A stretch of 36,059 nucleotides of DNA from Synechococcales cyanobacterium CRU_2_2 (GTDB taxonomy: Bacteria; Cyanobacteriota; Cyanobacteriia; PCC-9006; JAAUQQ01). The translations under genes were made by a program, and so were the position numbers. The stretch covers positions 1-36,059 of the forward strand of contig JAAUOP010000039.1 of the NCBI GenBank assembly GCA_012034805.1. The letters run 5' to 3'. Below the pieces are notes generated by a model. It was not told the DNA's origin, searched no databases, and saw only the letters and a list, made by a program, of their open reading frames with translations. This document shows, piece by piece, positions 16,531 through 35,856 of the stretch (within the stretch, counting starts at the first letter, position 1; every line of letters starts with the position of its first letter).

Positions 16531-16833
16531 GGAAGCTTCCAGCTGACGAGACGGGTCTTCTAGCCTAACAGTTTCGGCTAAGGCCTGGGTTCTTCGGCCA
16601 AGGGCGAGGTCTTTCCGGATAGCCCAGTCTCATTCCCATGCGCGCCAAACCCTTGAACTGAAACAATTCAAGCGCTGTTCGATTGCGATACATTACGTCG
16701 GTGTAACGCCAGATAACAATTGGCTTCGATCGCCTTGAGAATCCGTTGCGCTTCTTCAAACTTTCGCCAAAATACGTCAACAAGCGAGACGATGACCCAT
16801 GGCATGAATCGATCGCCCTCGGAGCGTAAAGCA
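16531..16833. other. 303-bp divergent spacer before chlB
   Basis: This spacer separates the leftward ABC gene from chlB and must hold promoters for both. A short inverted repeat TTGAA/TTCAA lies near 16651-16669. I could not assign a convincing -35/-10 pair. Confidence 0.45.
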
Positions 16834-18411
16834 ATGAAATTGGCCTATTGGATGTACGCAGGTCCAGCCCACATTGGCACCCTTCGTGTTGCCAGCTCGT
16901 TTAAAAATGTCCATGCCATCATGCACGCACCCATCGGCGATGATTATTTCAATGTGATGCGATCGATGCTGGAACGGGAGCGCGACTTTACCCCCGTTAC
17001 CACCAGCGTCGTCGATCGCCATGTGCTGGCGCGGGGCTCCCAAGAAAAAGTGGTGGACAACATCACCCGCAAGGATGGGGAAGAGCATCCCGACTTGATT
17101 GTGCTGACGCCGACTTGCACCTCCAGCATTTTGCAAGAAGATTTGGAAAACTTTGTCGAACGCGCCCAGCTTGAGGCCAAGGCCGATGTCCTGTTGGCGG
17201 ATGTCAATCACTACCGAGTCAACGAGCTACAAGCTGCCGATCGCACCCTAGAACAGATTGTTCAGTTCTATGTCAAAAAAGCGATCAAAGCCGGTGATTT
17301 GCAAACCGAAAAAACGGCTAAACCTTCGGTTAATATCATCGGCTTTTCGACCTTGGGTTTCCACAACAATCACGATTGCACCGAGCTGAAAAAGCTGATG
17401 GGTGAACTGGGGATTGAAGTCAACTTGGTCTTGCCCCATGAAGCCTCGGTACATGAACTCAAGAGCTTGCCCCGAGCTTGGTTTAACTTGTTGCCTTACC
17501 GTGAGCTGGGACTGTTGTCGGCTCAATATCTAGAATCCGAATTTGGCATGCCCTACGTGGACATTACGCCCATGGGGATCGTCGAAACGGCTCGCTGTAT
17601 TCGCAAGATTCAGCAGGTGGTGAATGCCCAGATCGCTCAGATGGAAACGGGCAATCCTTCGGAGCTTGGCGGAGCCAATCGCATCCCCGAAGTTGATTTT
17701 GAAGGGTTTATCGATCGCCAAACCCGCTACATTTCCCAAGCCGCTTGGTTCGCCCGCTCGATTGACTGCCAAAACCTGACCGGTAAGCGTGCCGTGGTCT
17801 TTGGCAACAATACCCATGCTGCCGCCATTACCAAGGTGCTAGCGCGGGAGATGGGGATCAAGGTGGTGTTGGCCGGAACCTATTGCAAACACGACGCTGA
17901 TTGGTTCACGGAGCAGGTGAGTGGATTTTGTGATGAGATCTTGATTACGGATGTGAATGCGGAAATTGCCAATGCGATCGCCCGTCTCGAACCCTCCGCC
18001 ATCTTTGGCACCCAGATGGAACGCCATGTCGGCAAACGCTTGAATATTCCCTGTGGAGTCATCGCGGCTCCGATTCATATTCAAAACTTCCCGGTCGGCT
18101 ACCGTCCTTACGTCGGCTACGAAGGTGCAAATCAACTGGTGGACTTGATTTACAACTCCTTCAAGCTCGGGATGGAAGATCACCTACTCGAAATTTTTGG
18201 CGGCCACGACACCAAGGAAATTCTCACGAAGGAAGTGGCGAACAATGCAGCTCTCCACTGGAGCGAAGACGGTTTGGTTGAGCTCAAGAAAGTCCCTGGT
18301 TTTGTGCGGGGTAAAGTTCGGCGCAATGTCGAAGCCTATGCCATTAAGCGCGGAACCAATTCGATTACGGCAGAGGTGATGTATGCAGCGAAGGAGTCCG
18401 TGGGAGCTTAG
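16834..18411 (+). CDS. chlB: light-independent protochlorophyllide reductase subunit B
   Basis: ChlB is the catalytic-component subunit of dark-operative protochlorophyllide reductase (ChlL-ChlN-ChlB), which reduces protochlorophyllide to chlorophyllide without light. The 525-residue protein starts with the family's [18 protein letters not shown] and has D36 (IGDDYF), the unusual aspartate ligand of the NB [4Fe-4S] cluster. [31 protein letters not shown] and the C-terminal EVMYAAK block also fit. GGAG lies nine bases before this ATG. The frame is open further upstream, but the conserved start is here. chlL and chlN are not adjacent in this window. The enzyme is oxygen-sensitive. Confidence 0.97.
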
Positions 18412-28446: not shown

Positions 28447-28731
28447 GGAACGGCAGATGCAATTTTTGCAGACAAATGAATATACTACATGATACTACAA
28501 AAAAGTTTTTTTGGCTTCAGGTCGAAACAGAGGCCGGGGAAACCATCACGGATAGCCAAGGAAATGGGTATTGTGTCTAGTCCTTAGTTCGAATGTATTA
28601 GGGAGAATTCTAAAAAAGTGCGGACAGGAGAAACTGAGGGCTATTTAGCCTAACGCCCTGATTCGGGCGCTGATGCGCGGCTTGAATCGGTTCAATGTTG
28701 CAATTTGGGGAGTTAGGCTGACGAATTTTGG

Positions 28732-28737
28732 TACAAT
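28732..28737 (+). promoter_or_regulatory. possible extended -10 element upstream of the histone-fold/ACP-like gene
   Basis: TTGGTACAAT reads as an extended -10 (TG-N-TACAAT). No good -35 is visible, which extended -10 promoters tolerate. The distance to the ATG is about 250 bases, so a long leader would follow. Confidence 0.35.
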
Positions 28738-28762
28738 GCTCTGTGTTTGGGATTATGTTAGG

Positions 28763-28798
28763 TAGACTTAGATCAGTCTAATATCTAAACTTTAGATA
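28763..28798. promoter_or_regulatory. two adjacent palindromes, possible operator
   Basis: TAGACT-N6-AGTCTA (28763-28780) is followed after one base by TATCTAAA-C-TTTAGATA (28782-28798). Both arms are perfect. They lie 25-60 bases past the possible -10 and could bind a dimeric regulator or form leader hairpins. Confidence 0.45.
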
Positions 28799-28986
28799 GA
28801 TAGGCGCAGTAAATTTCGGCTTAATACCCCCATAAGAGGTGAATAGGCCGACGCAGTTCAGCCTAAACAATACTTAGACTACAAGAGCCTGATAGTAATA
28901 GTACTTCTATCGTATTTGTTTGGGTTTAAGTTCAGATATTGTCGAGTTAGCTGAGATTATAAATCAATTAATCAATTGATCTGGTT

Positions 28987-29607
28987 ATGGACGTCTGTTT
29001 GTGTCGGAGAGAGTTCAGTGAACATAATGATAAGGTTTACGAACTACGTATACTAAAGAAAGTGATCGATTCTTGTTTAGACAATAGTGTGTCAGCTACA
29101 GAGGAAGGATTGAACTTACTCCTTCATACATGTGATGAGTTGGTTTGGGAGATAGCCACAATAATTTATACTCGAAGTGGACACAAAGTTGAGTTTTCCA
29201 CAATACGTGATGTTATTGATTCTCGGATTAAAATCTTAAAAGTACATGTAGAGGCTGAGAAGGCAGAGACGCTTCAGCAAAGAGAAGAGATAGAGAAGCA
29301 GAGAAAAAATCGCTTGATTCTGTTGTCTAAACAGTTGGAAGTATCTGGCAGAGACAACTGTATGTCCGACCTCTTCCTAACTGTTCAGGATATAGTTGCA
29401 AAACAATTGAGTGTTGATGTAAGTGAGATAACTTTAGATGCCTCTCTTGTCAGTAACTTGGGAGCTGATGAGTTGGATGTTCCTCAGCTTGTAATGTCGC
29501 TTGAAGAAGAATTTTGTATCGAGGTACCAGATTGCAAATCAGAAAATTTGTCGACTGTTGGGGAGTTTTTGGATTACATTCATGAACAACTAGAGCTTCA
29601 ATGCTAG
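28987..29607 (+). CDS. histone-fold-like / coiled-coil / ACP-like protein lacking the carrier serine
   Basis: A 206-residue protein, not recognised as a whole. Residues 20-82 match the helix-loop pattern of archaeal histones: a short helix, loop with NSVSA (compare RVSD), a long central helix of about 27 residues (39-64), SGHKVEF (compare AGRKTI), then a third helix. Residues 84-118 are charged and heptad-like, a probable coiled coil. Residues 128-204 are a clear acyl-carrier-protein domain (ASLVSNLGADELDVPQLVM, SLEEEFCIEVPD), but the Ser of GADSLD that takes phosphopantetheine is E162. It cannot act as a normal carrier. The gene is AT-rich, has no HIP1 site and no ribosome site. An internal ATG (29362) would give the ACP part alone. 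Confidence 0.65.
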   Translation: MDVCLCRREFSEHNDKVYELRILKKVIDSCLDNSVSATEEGLNLLLHTCDELVWEIATIIYTRSGHKVEFSTIRDVIDSRIKILKVHVEAEKAETLQQREEIEKQRKNRLILLSKQLEVSGRDNCMSDLFLTVQDIVAKQLSVDVSEITLDASLVSNLGADELDVPQLVMSLEEEFCIEVPDCKSENLSTVGEFLDYIHEQLELQC

Positions 29608-29935
29608 CGTGTGCGGCAATTGCAGTACAAACAGACTGGCAATTGTATTGTAGTGGAACAAATTGTCTTTTTCGTTGAGCTGTAAAGGTTGTCTGAGTCC
29701 GCTGAACACGATCGTTAAGTTGCAGCTGATGCTGGGGAGTGCAGAAAACAGTCAAACACGGTGTATTAGAAAACGCTCGATCGCATTTTGTCCAACCATT
29801 TCTTTCAGAAGACCCAATATCGTGAAGAGAATGTTTGGACAGTATCTTTCGCGATCAGCACGCCACACGATTATCGCTTCAATCTCAGTTTTGACTTCCT
29901 AGGATTGAAGCAATAATTGACAGCTATATGTACAG
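29608..29935. other. 328-bp convergent spacer, possible gene remnant
   Basis: A 48-codon open stretch at 29770-29916 (plus) without a start reads coding-like (FFQKTQYREENVWTVSFAIS) and may be the end of a decayed gene. GGCAATTG occurs twice near the left end. Nothing else is supported. Confidence 0.3.
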
Positions 29936-32900
29936 CTATTCAGGCTGTTTTTCTGGCAACAGACACTTGTCTGAATCACACCCCGCAGGCCCAGCTTCCA
30001 TCATCGGCCCCGTATCATAGCGCTTCAATGCCGCCAGGAAATCCGCCGTATTCCGCCGCTTCAGCACCGCCGCCATCAGCGATACATACGCTGCCTTGTC
30101 AATGGGCTCGAAGGGCAAACGCGGGAACGTTTGCAAATCGTCGAACCGGGCGAGCAGAGCTGCGGACATGTAGCCCTCATCTTGGGCGATCGCCTCATAC
30201 AACCGCTGGGCCAAGGGTTCAATCTCCGCCTCCCGCAGTTCCACCGTCGCTGAGGTATTGTGCGTGGTGTAATGCCGTTGTACCTGCATATAAAAGTCGA
30301 ACTGGGCCAGCGCCGAAAACTGACTAATATCGACTTGATCCGCTCCAGGCAGATTGGCCCAGCTCACCTCCGTCGGAATTTCCACCAGCCATTCGGTGCA
30401 ACGTGGGTCGAAGGGATCGTCAAGCAAATTGCCGTTTTCATCCTTGTCCGACTGGGACGGCACAATCGTATAGCCGTAGTCAATACAAGCCATCGCCACC
30501 GGGTCATTCTTGCGGAATGTAATCCGGCGCAGGAATCGCTGGGCCTTGGGCGGATGCCAGCCCGAGCTGGCACCAGTAAGCAGACTCTTGGTGCCAGCCG
30601 GTTGCACGGTGGTGCAGCGATTCGGACGGCGGAGGTTGTGGCGATCGCAATACTCCCAAATTGTTGCATGGACAACCTCTCGCCAGCGATTCAGATACTC
30701 CGCCTCCTTTTGCTTAAATTCAAGGCCTTGGAGTGTTTCAGGTCGACCTTCTACCCACCACTCTAGCCACGGCGTGCCAAAGGCATGGACAAAGAAATCA
30801 AACAGACCTGTAAACGAAACGCCCACGATCGGATCCCATTCCCGCGATTGGCGGTAGCGGTCTTCGAGAAACTCATGATTTAACAAGGCTGCCACCGAGA
30901 GGGCTCCGGCCTTGAAGGCGTCTGCCTGGTCTTGCGCATCGTGGGGGTCGAGTTGATTGAGGTGAACCTCCGAAAGATTACAGTGAAAGTTTGTGCCGAT
31001 TATTTCACCGCAGTTGTGGGCAACAAATCCGTTGGCATCGAACCGGGCCGGGCCAGGTACTGTGCAGTCGTAGACCGACTCCATACCGTCAGGCGCAATT
31101 TCCGTGACGGTGACGGCAAAGCGCTCCCGGTTAAAGTTGCGCTGGGAGTTGCTCAGGAGATCGGTGAGTTTTTTCTGCTTGGTCGGATCTTGGAATCCAA
31201 TCAGGCTGGCGAACTCCACCAAGTTGTCATTGGCAATCACTAATTCATGCTGAGCCTTGCAGTTGTACTCGGCGAGGTTGCGATCGGAATCGGGCATCAA
31301 GCGCACTTGAGCGGGGCGGCGATCGCGATAGAGCTTCGAGACAATCCCCAACCGCATCAGCATCCGCTGCACGGCTTGGAGCATCAGCAGATCACTCTGC
31401 GCCAACCGGACAGAAATACCTTTCAACTGGCTGCCCTGGACGCTCCCATCCGCATCAAACAACCCTTGTAGGAAACCACAGTAGAATTCGCAGCTACCCT
31501 GTTCTACTTCCGCCGTAACGGTTTTGTGACTGGGAAAAACGCCGAACTGCTTCGCGATCTGAGCTAAGGCAGAAGAACCGACTTCAAAGTAGCGATTGCG
31601 CTCATGGTAGGTGCCATGGCTGGGTTTTGTCGGTGCGCCGTCTAGTTGATTGACCAAGGCGAGAGCGTGCTCTTTCATCACATCCTGGGTGTCGCCCCAA
31701 TAACGCAACTTGGCTTGGTAGGTGTGGTTTTTGGGATAGTCCACGAGGGAGCCGTCGCCGATCAGACTGCCCAGAAGCCAACCTTCGGCTTCACTTCCGG
31801 CCCCGCCCCAGGGCTGCAAACCTCGGTGGTTGTGGATCAGGACGCGATCGCCCGCCACCAAATCTCCAGCTTCGACCCATTCGCTATATTGCGCTTTCTG
31901 GGTCTGACCAATGACCTTTAGAACACGGTGATTTGCGGTCAGACGCAAGCTTTGGCCTTCTTTTGTCTGGAGTTTGACAACCGGTTTGATGCCGCTGAAG
32001 AAGAATCCATCAGCGGTGGTGCTGAACAGTTCACCGTTGATATAAGTGCTATGCTGCTGGCCGATTAGGCTCTGCACCTGGCGAGGGCCGTCTCCGGTAT
32101 GGATCCAGGTGTCGGCGGTGACGCATGGATTCAGGCCATATCGCTGAAATCGGTGTTCTAATTCACTCTCGGTCATGTCAGGCTGATATTGCTTAAGCCA
32201 TTGCATGGCTTCTTGAATACCCAGCTCCCCATAAATTGCCAAAAATTCAGCTTTGAGATCGGGATGGGTGAGCAAGTCGGCATTGGCGCGGGCGATCGCC
32301 TCTGGTGCATACTGAATCGCGCCCTCTCCCGAATAAAACTGCTTCCGCACCGCTTCGAGAGTCTCCTCAGCCGTGGGCTTGCGATGGAATACGCGGGTAT
32401 GATTCGCCATCCGCAGGGCATCCCGCTCGGGGTCAATGCGCCAGTTACCACTTTCGTCTTGCTGCCAAAGATTTTCCTTGGCACCGGCTGCAATCTCATC
32501 ACGAGAATCAAACTGTCTCATGCCCGCACTCCTGCGGATATTGCCTGCGACAATTGTTACTGCAGCTTCGTCAATTAACAAGCAGCACTCGATCGAATTG
32601 AGCTGCCGACCCTGGGCCTGATTCAAAATCCGCACCACACGTTGATACATATCCGGCAGCTTCACCGGATTGGCCATGCCGCCGAATCCCTTCAGGGTTT
32701 CACCGGCGGGGCGGACATCGCTCATGTCCACGAGAATTTCGACGGTGCCATCAAAGCGATCGCTACTCGACAGCTCCAGCAGCGTTTCGTAGGACTTGAC
32801 CCAACCCTGGCGGCTGTCTCCCACATGGATGGCCACCGCCTGGTTGTCATTCCAAATAACCTCCGTTTCCTCCCGACGCAAGCTCGCAGGCGTCGTGCCC

Positions 32901-33355
32901 ACGGCTCCCTGCACCCGCAGCGAAATCCGATTGCGAATCGGCGGCAGCAGCTCAATGTATTTCGGCTCAAGCATTGCCCCCGTACCACAGCCCATCATGG
33001 CCAAGTCCATCATCAGGGCAAAGGCATGCCAGTCCGTCACATTAGTGGAGGTGCAATTGTAGCCGCCGGAGAAATTCTTTTGCGAATCTATCCAGTCAGT
33101 GCCACCAATCCAGAGCCAGCGGCCTGAGGTGAGAGTCTTGAGTTCCTGTTGCATCCGAATGATCAGGGCTTCTTCTGGGGAGGTCAGCCTGCCGAGTTTG
33201 GCAACCCCGGCCACTGTGCGATCGCACACCTGCTCCCAACTCTCACGCCCCGCCTCAGTTTGCCGACTGTAGGTGCGAAAAAAGACGGGGTTTGCAGCGG
33301 GGGCAGAAGCCGGAAAGTCAGCGATGCGACGGGTGCGAACGATATCTTGAACCAT
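29936..33355 (-). CDS. nrdJ: adenosylcobalamin-dependent (class II) ribonucleotide reductase with intein
   Basis: A 1139-residue precursor that splices to about 768 residues, close to the monomeric Lactobacillus-type RTPR (739). It reduces ribonucleotides using vitamin B12 coenzyme, without oxygen or a second subunit. Redox cysteine C101 (GGYNCTSTN) pairs with C792 (FHCNLSE). C782 in NPCGEI is the thiyl-radical cysteine, with E784 beside it. C1126 and C1131 (CDSDKC) are the C-terminal shuttle pair. Residues 411-781 are an intein (separate entry), so activity depends on splicing. Asn and Pro of NPCGEI end the N-extein. No B12 riboswitch is visible upstream; a weak NrdR-like box lies at 33487-33502. 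Confidence 0.95.
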   Translation of the reverse strand: MVQDIVRTRRIADFPASAPAANPVFFRTYSRQTEAGRESWEQVCDRTVAGVAKLGRLTSPEEALIIRMQQELKTLTSGRWLWIGGTDWIDSQKNFSGGYNCTSTNVTDWHAFALMMDLAMMGCGTGAMLEPKYIELLPPIRNRISLRVQGAVGTTPASLRREETEVIWNDNQAVAIHVGDSRQGWVKSYETLLELSSSDRFDGTVEILVDMSDVRPAGETLKGFGGMANPVKLPDMYQRVVRILNQAQGRQLNSIECCLLIDEAAVTIVAGNIRRSAGMRQFDSRDEIAAGAKENLWQQDESGNWRIDPERDALRMANHTRVFHRKPTAEETLEAVRKQFYSGEGAIQYAPEAIARANADLLTHPDLKAEFLAIYGELGIQEAMQWLKQYQPDMTESELEHRFQRYGLNPCVTADTWIHTGDGPRQVQSLIGQQHSTYINGELFSTTADGFFFSGIKPVVKLQTKEGQSLRLTANHRVLKVIGQTQKAQYSEWVEAGDLVAGDRVLIHNHRGLQPWGGAGSEAEGWLLGSLIGDGSLVDYPKNHTYQAKLRYWGDTQDVMKEHALALVNQLDGAPTKPSHGTYHERNRYFEVGSSALAQIAKQFGVFPSHKTVTAEVEQGSCEFYCGFLQGLFDADGSVQGSQLKGISVRLAQSDLLMLQAVQRMLMRLGIVSKLYRDRRPAQVRLMPDSDRNLAEYNCKAQHELVIANDNLVEFASLIGFQDPTKQKKLTDLLSNSQRNFNRERFAVTVTEIAPDGMESVYDCTVPGPARFDANGFVAHNCGEIIGTNFHCNLSEVHLNQLDPHDAQDQADAFKAGALSVAALLNHEFLEDRYRQSREWDPIVGVSFTGLFDFFVHAFGTPWLEWWVEGRPETLQGLEFKQKEAEYLNRWREVVHATIWEYCDRHNLRRPNRCTTVQPAGTKSLLTGASSGWHPPKAQRFLRRITFRKNDPVAMACIDYGYTIVPSQSDKDENGNLLDDPFDPRCTEWLVEIPTEVSWANLPGADQVDISQFSALAQFDFYMQVQRHYTTHNTSATVELREAEIEPLAQRLYEAIAQDEGYMSAALLARFDDLQTFPRLPFEPIDKAAYVSLMAAVLKRRNTADFLAALKRYDTGPMMEAGPAGCDSDKCLLPEKQPE
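31013..32125 (-). mobile_element. intein with LAGLIDADG homing endonuclease, in nrdJ
   Basis: The 371-residue intein covers residues 411-781 of the precursor. Block A begins with C411 (CVTADTWIHTGDG). Block B is SLRLTANHRVLK with the TxxH pair T473/H476. Block F is VYDCTVPGPARFDANGF and block G is VAHN, with penultimate His and terminal N781, followed by +1 C782. The central part is a DOD endonuclease with two motifs, LLGSLIGDG (527-535) and FLQGLFDADG (628-637). Both keep the catalytic acids (D534, D636), so the endonuclease may be active. No frameshift or stop is present. It is a full-length, apparently mobile intein at a conserved active-site position. Confidence 0.95.
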
Positions 33356-35532: not shown

Positions 35533-35856
35533 ATGAAGGATTTTATTTACGAAACCATGTACATCCTGCGCCCAGACTTGGGTGAGGAAGACGCGGAAAA
35601 GAATATCACCGCCTACCAAACTATTCTGAAGGAAGCAGGTGCAGATATTATTGAGACCCAGCATCGGGGCAAGCGCCGCATGGCCTACCCGATCAACAAG
35701 CGCCGTGAGGGCATCTATATCCAGATGAACTACCGTGCGCCGGGTGCGGCGATCGCCCCCATGGAGCGAGCCATGCGCCTGAGCGAAGATGTGATTCGCT
35801 ATCTCACGGTGAAGCAGGAAGTCCGGGAGGAAGAGCCTGCCGAAGAAGTGGCGTAG
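35533..35856 (+). CDS. rpsF: 30S ribosomal protein S6
   Basis: A 107-residue small-subunit protein. The start [16 protein letters not shown], the [18 protein letters not shown] block and the acidic tail EEEPAEEVA are typical of cyanobacterial S6. AGGAG lies before the ATG. A strong terminator follows 30 bases after the stop, so it appears to be a single-gene transcript; rpsR and ssb are not next to it. Confidence 0.97.

Follow-up and report, generated by a model that had tools for sequence, protein, structure and literature searches.

Coiled-coil histones reported so far are archaeal; their C-terminal helix is long and they have acidic tails (PMC11390915). An RxTxxxxD motif has been described for most prokaryotic histones, and phage histones are among those that do without it (PMC11390915). 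In cyanobacteria, effector-associated domains (EADs) are common as small, non-catalytic helical adaptors (PMC8195603, PMC7159879), and the known binding partners of acyl carrier proteins (ACPs) include non-FAS proteins, SpoT among them (PMC3340395). Here we describe a cyanobacterial gene whose product joins a helical N-terminal domain (N-domain), through a charged helical stalk, to an ACP-like C-terminal domain (C-domain) that has lost the phosphopantetheine serine in most members of its family. This architecture is real and undescribed: relatives with identical domain order exist, so it is no artefact, and we found no publication that joins a histone fold with an acyl carrier protein, a coiled coil and cyanobacteria.

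The gene lies on the forward strand at positions 28987-29607 of a 36,059-nucleotide contig of Synechococcales cyanobacterium CRU_2_2 (the window, meaning the whole stretch of DNA analysed), whose cyanobacterial origin is evident from genes such as chlB (16720-18411) and rpsF (35533-35856). The open reading frame of 206 aa, with its ATG at 28987, is borne out by the list of open reading frames, by its translation and by an alignment with 13 relatives. In this alignment the relatives' proteins begin around residue 8-12 and offer nothing to match the first ~12 residues, which leaves the true start of the window gene uncertain. The annotated ATG stands upstream of a GGAGAGAG stretch (29005-29035) and has no clear Shine-Dalgarno site, while the stretch itself is at about the position of a ribosome-binding site for the relatives' start and is followed by no in-frame start codon.

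Composition and comparison with sister genomes place the gene, alone, in an AT-rich island (28450-29935): GC content is 39% in the gene and 40-43% in its flanks, against 55% in the window. An ABC transporter gene lies on one side and a ribonucleotide reductase gene on the other, and these two are not adjacent in the relatives examined. Our search of related genomes did not find the N-domain gene in the nearest sister species, where the two flanking genes sit on different contigs with other neighbours. In sister genomes the flanking genes are either non-adjacent or on broken contigs, and no clean empty site was seen. The low GC and the sporadic presence of the gene suggest that it was acquired. 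The only Rfam match near the gene was a sub-threshold microRNA, which we take to be chance. As a separate observation, the ribonucleotide reductase ORF (29936-33355) contains an intein-like insert of ~1.1 kb (31014-32121, reverse strand) whose translation has splice-like motifs, C at the start and HNC at the end. The relative G005 is without the insert, its alignment being continuous over the site (L129 576-580), and the sister species G001 has a stretch of equal length there that is no longer alignable by blastn.

The family is small and has so far been seen only in Cyanobacteria, a restriction that rests on the collections searched, namely cyanobacterial genomes, genome contigs, viral contigs, plasmids and phages. 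Of 386 cyanobacterial genomes sampled with an N-domain profile, 13 contain the domain, counting matches at E ≤ 2e-5 since weaker rows fall within unrelated proteins; within one family the count is 12 of 50 genomes. The copies are often decayed. Searching 96 related genomes revealed two clear relatives that match most of the protein's length, plus several others in which N- or C-domain matches fall in a single frame. The relationship of the G067 member is weak. The order of N-domain, helical stalk and ACP-like C-domain is common to all intact copies; a search for homologues with this order had been suggested as a check of the original prediction. Three N-domain alignments found no relative in viral contigs; of the full-length queries against the same contigs, one gave nothing and the other gave two loci matching the C-terminal half only. 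The N-domain was also absent from the plasmid and phage records searched, and the sole find of a single-protein scan of genome contigs was a planctomycete ACP. No neighbour is conserved across genera, the neighbours varying and being mostly housekeeping genes, and local synteny is shared among closely related genomes. In one genus, genes for the same oxidoreductase and small membrane proteins adjoin it, and in another group its neighbours are genes for a glycine dehydrogenase and a HigA-like protein (functions assigned by eye).

The C-domain (residues ~127-201; 29365-29589, forward strand) matches the Pfam PP-binding model PF00550 above the cut-off (E = 6e-8) and the NCBIfam acyl carrier protein model TIGR00517 with 73 bits (cut-off 70.45). 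These matches uphold the ACP-like domain of the original prediction, which however overlooked that the phosphopantetheine serine is absent: the window protein reads GADELD for GADSLD, with Glu replacing Ser so that DSL becomes DEL, within the motif NLGADELDVPQL (29446-29481, forward strand), whose counterpart in AcpP, by comparison with relatives and AcpPs, is DLGADSLDTVEL. Glu occupies this position in 12 of 18 family members, and Ser is kept in one of the 18 (G219a, which reads DSL) as well as in a split gene of G456. The AcpPs that we collected from these and related genomes keep the serine as GADSLD or GMDSLD, although the collection pattern required one of these motifs and is therefore not an independent census of the residue. 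Judged from its sequence, the window C-domain is ACP-derived but cannot be a classical carrier; a carrier role appears possible in some members, given the two copies that keep Ser. The NCBIfam model would annotate these proteins as "acyl carrier protein", though most of them cannot carry anything.

What the C-domain does retain is the acidic helix II (DVPQLVMSLEEEFCIEVPD), which is its best conserved part and in which E51 and E52 are invariant. In several members helix II and the last helix are separated by a large insert, which may alter ACP-like docking. In a tree built from 85 columns, all collected AcpPs fall in one well-supported clade (100/98) and the family C-domains fall outside of it, with long branches limiting further inference from this tree. 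The AcpP clade also holds the E. coli AcpP sequence used for comparison. This type of C-domain also ends a different protein, so it appears to be a transferable module. That protein, a 398-aa product of G032 (L028 2137-3333) that looks YaaW-like by eye, has a serine-less ACP-like domain at its C-terminus with Tyr at the Ser position, and the domain is placed next to G164/G032 in the tree. We also observed a 275-aa charged coiled-coil protein in the sister species G001 (L027 6022-6849) that lacks the N-domain and has two ACP-like domains, each bearing Glu in place of Ser.

The N-domain of ~70 aa (residues ~17-86; 29035-29244, forward strand) was delimited from the family alignment, AlphaFold2 single-sequence models and pN/pS. 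It is predicted to comprise a helix of 16-18 aa, a loop, a helix of 26 aa, a 5-aa loop containing SGHK and a further helix, with the conserved pattern DxxVWxIATxIYxxSGHxVEFxxIRDxI. Across 13 members, L, D, T, Y, G and R positions are invariant and V, W, I, S and I positions nearly so. From the single sequence, AlphaFold2 modelled helices of 18, 26 and 40 residues in a first model (pLDDT 79, pTM 0.53) and of 16, 26 and 17 residues for a shorter piece (pLDDT 70, pTM 0.43), both of them low-confidence monomer bundles that are too weak to settle the fold. Within these models the originally proposed layout of helix, long helix, SGHK loop and helix holds, with predicted lengths of 16-18, 26 and at least 17 residues that are compatible with a histone, but the accompanying fold search did not return one: neither low-confidence model had a significant Foldseek match in the PDB, and no histone stood among the best 50. 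The weak Foldseek matches include designed three-helix bundles, ribosomal protein S20 and MIT domains, and PHROG, PADLOC and PDB profiles gave nothing firm on the N-domain.

The original prediction went further, stating that the N-domain follows the archaeal-histone plan closely and that the gene could encode a nucleoid or DNA-binding protein. As a calibration, global alignments of residues 16-86 to archaeal histones were compared with those of helix-prone windows taken from neighbouring ORFs. Of these windows, 27% reach the HMfB score, 16% and 9% the scores for two other archaeal histones, and 18-39% the median scores of the family. The profile-profile comparison that had been proposed as a check gave a raw hhalign score of 9.7 against archaeal histones, no better than column-shuffled nulls (9.85 ± 2.2, n = 60), where an archaeal-histone positive control, an easy and close one, scored 73.8. 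A Pfam scan of the 13 members at E values up to 10, at which HMMER filters still drop most very weak matches, found no match to a histone family, CBFD_NFYB_HMF included, or to DUF1931, the latter having been suggested as a second profile to compare. A search of the gene's own genome with the Pfam archaeal-histone model PF00808 did not pick it up, and the family profile found no histone among PDB chain sequences. In the family alignment the RxTxxxxD motif is absent and SG[HY]KVEFxxIRD stands at its place. The whole proteins are acidic (pI 4.5-5.6) and the N-domain has a net charge of -7 to +2 versus +3 for HMfB, which does not agree with a basic DNA-binding surface, though there may be a local basic patch. 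Neither the histone fold nor DNA binding is thus supported by HMMER profiles, hhalign, calibrated alignment, charge or Foldseek (the last on low-confidence models), and the failure of an apparent histone resemblance under calibrated comparison is a caution.

These results make it improbable that the N-domain is a handshake histone-fold dimer on a coiled-coil tetrameric stalk, with the acidic ACP-like domain as a tail or interaction module, in a protein that bridges DNA. The modelled helix lengths and the short second loop with G-[HY]-K would suit a helix-long helix-helix layout, the long C-terminal helix and acidic tails of archaeal coiled-coil histones offer a precedent, and the missing motif is not fatal because phage histones are also without it. 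Yet the profile, alignment, charge and Foldseek results all stand against it, and in our models the helix layout is the only remaining point in its favour. We consider it extremely unlikely that a divergent histone-fold dimer with a coiled-coil stalk displays a dead ACP and links DNA, or another conserved target, to lipid-synthesis proteins; if true, it would define a new class of factors that organise DNA or proteins in bacteria. Most likely the N-domain is a small helical bundle rather than a histone, and it is probably an oligomerisation or partner-binding domain.

The long helix that was expected after the N-domain is present as a charged helical stalk (residues ~87-120; 29245-29346, forward strand), the charged helical stretch spanning ~86-120 and the helix of the AlphaFold2 single-sequence model running continuously to residue ~109. 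It corresponds to the stalk of the relatives, which is variable in length. Both the stalk and the C-domain insert vary through tandem repeats. The repeat units measure 33, 45, 18 and 9 bp, each a multiple of three; those of 33, 45 and 18 bp occur in relatives' stalks, and the 33-bp unit encodes 11 residues in one relative. The repeats at L053 9748-9803, L054 9952-10057 and L057 9098-9193, with units of 9, 33 and 45 bp, are in frame and lie in a relative's insert or stalk; the copy number of the 9-bp Ser-Tyr repeat varies between close orthologues. A comparison of four close orthologues from a single genus, in which the counts are small, puts pN/pS at 0.13 in the N-domain and 0.35 in the C-core without the insert; the stalk reaches 0.82, and the C-terminal part together with its insert 0.73. 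The N-domain and the C-core are under purifying selection among these four orthologues. Given that both domains are constrained there, the serine-less C-domain is not the product of mere decay.

We tentatively favour, at slightly less than an even chance, an accessory cyanobacterial protein whose helical N-domain displays a dead ACP, by way of a stalk of variable length, as a docking module or mimic. The constrained N-domain would bind itself or a conserved partner and the stalk would set the reach of the displayed C-domain. The C-domain, lacking phosphopantetheine, keeps the acidic helix II through which ACPs dock and could bind, uncharged, an ACP-recognising protein or another ACP partner, which the N-domain would then bring to a second target or cluster. 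Because the acidic helix II is kept, the dead ACP domain is most likely a docking module or ACP mimic, and the interaction role that had been proposed for the C-terminal part is probable. Against docking, the gene neighbourhoods of the relatives contain no conserved neighbour that would name a partner; we infer the docking function, the oligomerisation and the nature of the partner.

The main alternative to a docking scaffold is an adaptor of a conflict or cell-suicide system, in which a small helical domain is combined with a homotypic or docking module as in EAD proteins. Sporadic occurrence, absence from the sister species, the low-GC island and tandem duplicates (in G268 and G219) form an accessory-gene pattern, with which the frequent decay and the length changes driven by repeats also agree. 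Some genomes also have suggestive neighbours, with XisH and XisI directly adjoining the gene in G032, a PIN-type pair (PIN/antitoxin-like by eye) near it in G038, and the HigA-like gene mentioned above. However, no effector, NTPase or protease domain occurs in the gene or beside it, neighbours differ among genera, and PADLOC gives one weak match only (E = 0.0023, 14.8 bits), so we regard this role as unlikely. That the gene is a non-functional remnant, a transferred ACP fusion in decay, seems a poor explanation: copies are broken or partial in G038, G305, G235 and G456, and probably also in G468 and G473, and the window copy has an unusual start and low GC, but its ORF is intact across 206 codons and the intact orthologues of one genus show the constraint described above. 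Poorer still is the suggestion of a working carrier, a specialised ACP on a stalk that still bears a substrate in some members. The NCBIfam cut-off is passed and DSL is kept in G219a and in the split G456 gene, but the window protein has Glu at the Ser position, most members have replaced the Ser, and no biosynthetic genes lie nearby, making this very improbable. If the C-domain is instead the dedicated docking module that we favour, it would be a natural ACP mimic and provide a handle on the proteins that read ACP surfaces in cyanobacteria.

Among described proteins, the archaeal coiled-coil histones of the HMfC type (PMC11390915) are similar in having a short helical domain, then a long C-terminal helix and an acidic appendage, but no sequence or profile similarity to them was detected. 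Further, the N-domain of the present protein is acidic, the protein is cyanobacterial, and a folded ACP-like C-domain replaces the tail. EADs (PMC8195603, PMC7159879) are likewise small, non-catalytic helical domains coupled to another module and sporadic in cyanobacteria, whereas no effector or NTPase partner was found here and comparison through Pfam and PADLOC profiles gave no EAD match. With AcpP (PF00550, TIGR00517), the C-domain shares homology by profile and a largely kept acidic helix II sequence. It differs from AcpP in the loss of the phosphopantetheine serine in most members, in the Ser/Gly-rich insert that precedes the last helix of many relatives, in its position outside the AcpP clade, and in being the C-terminal part of a longer protein.
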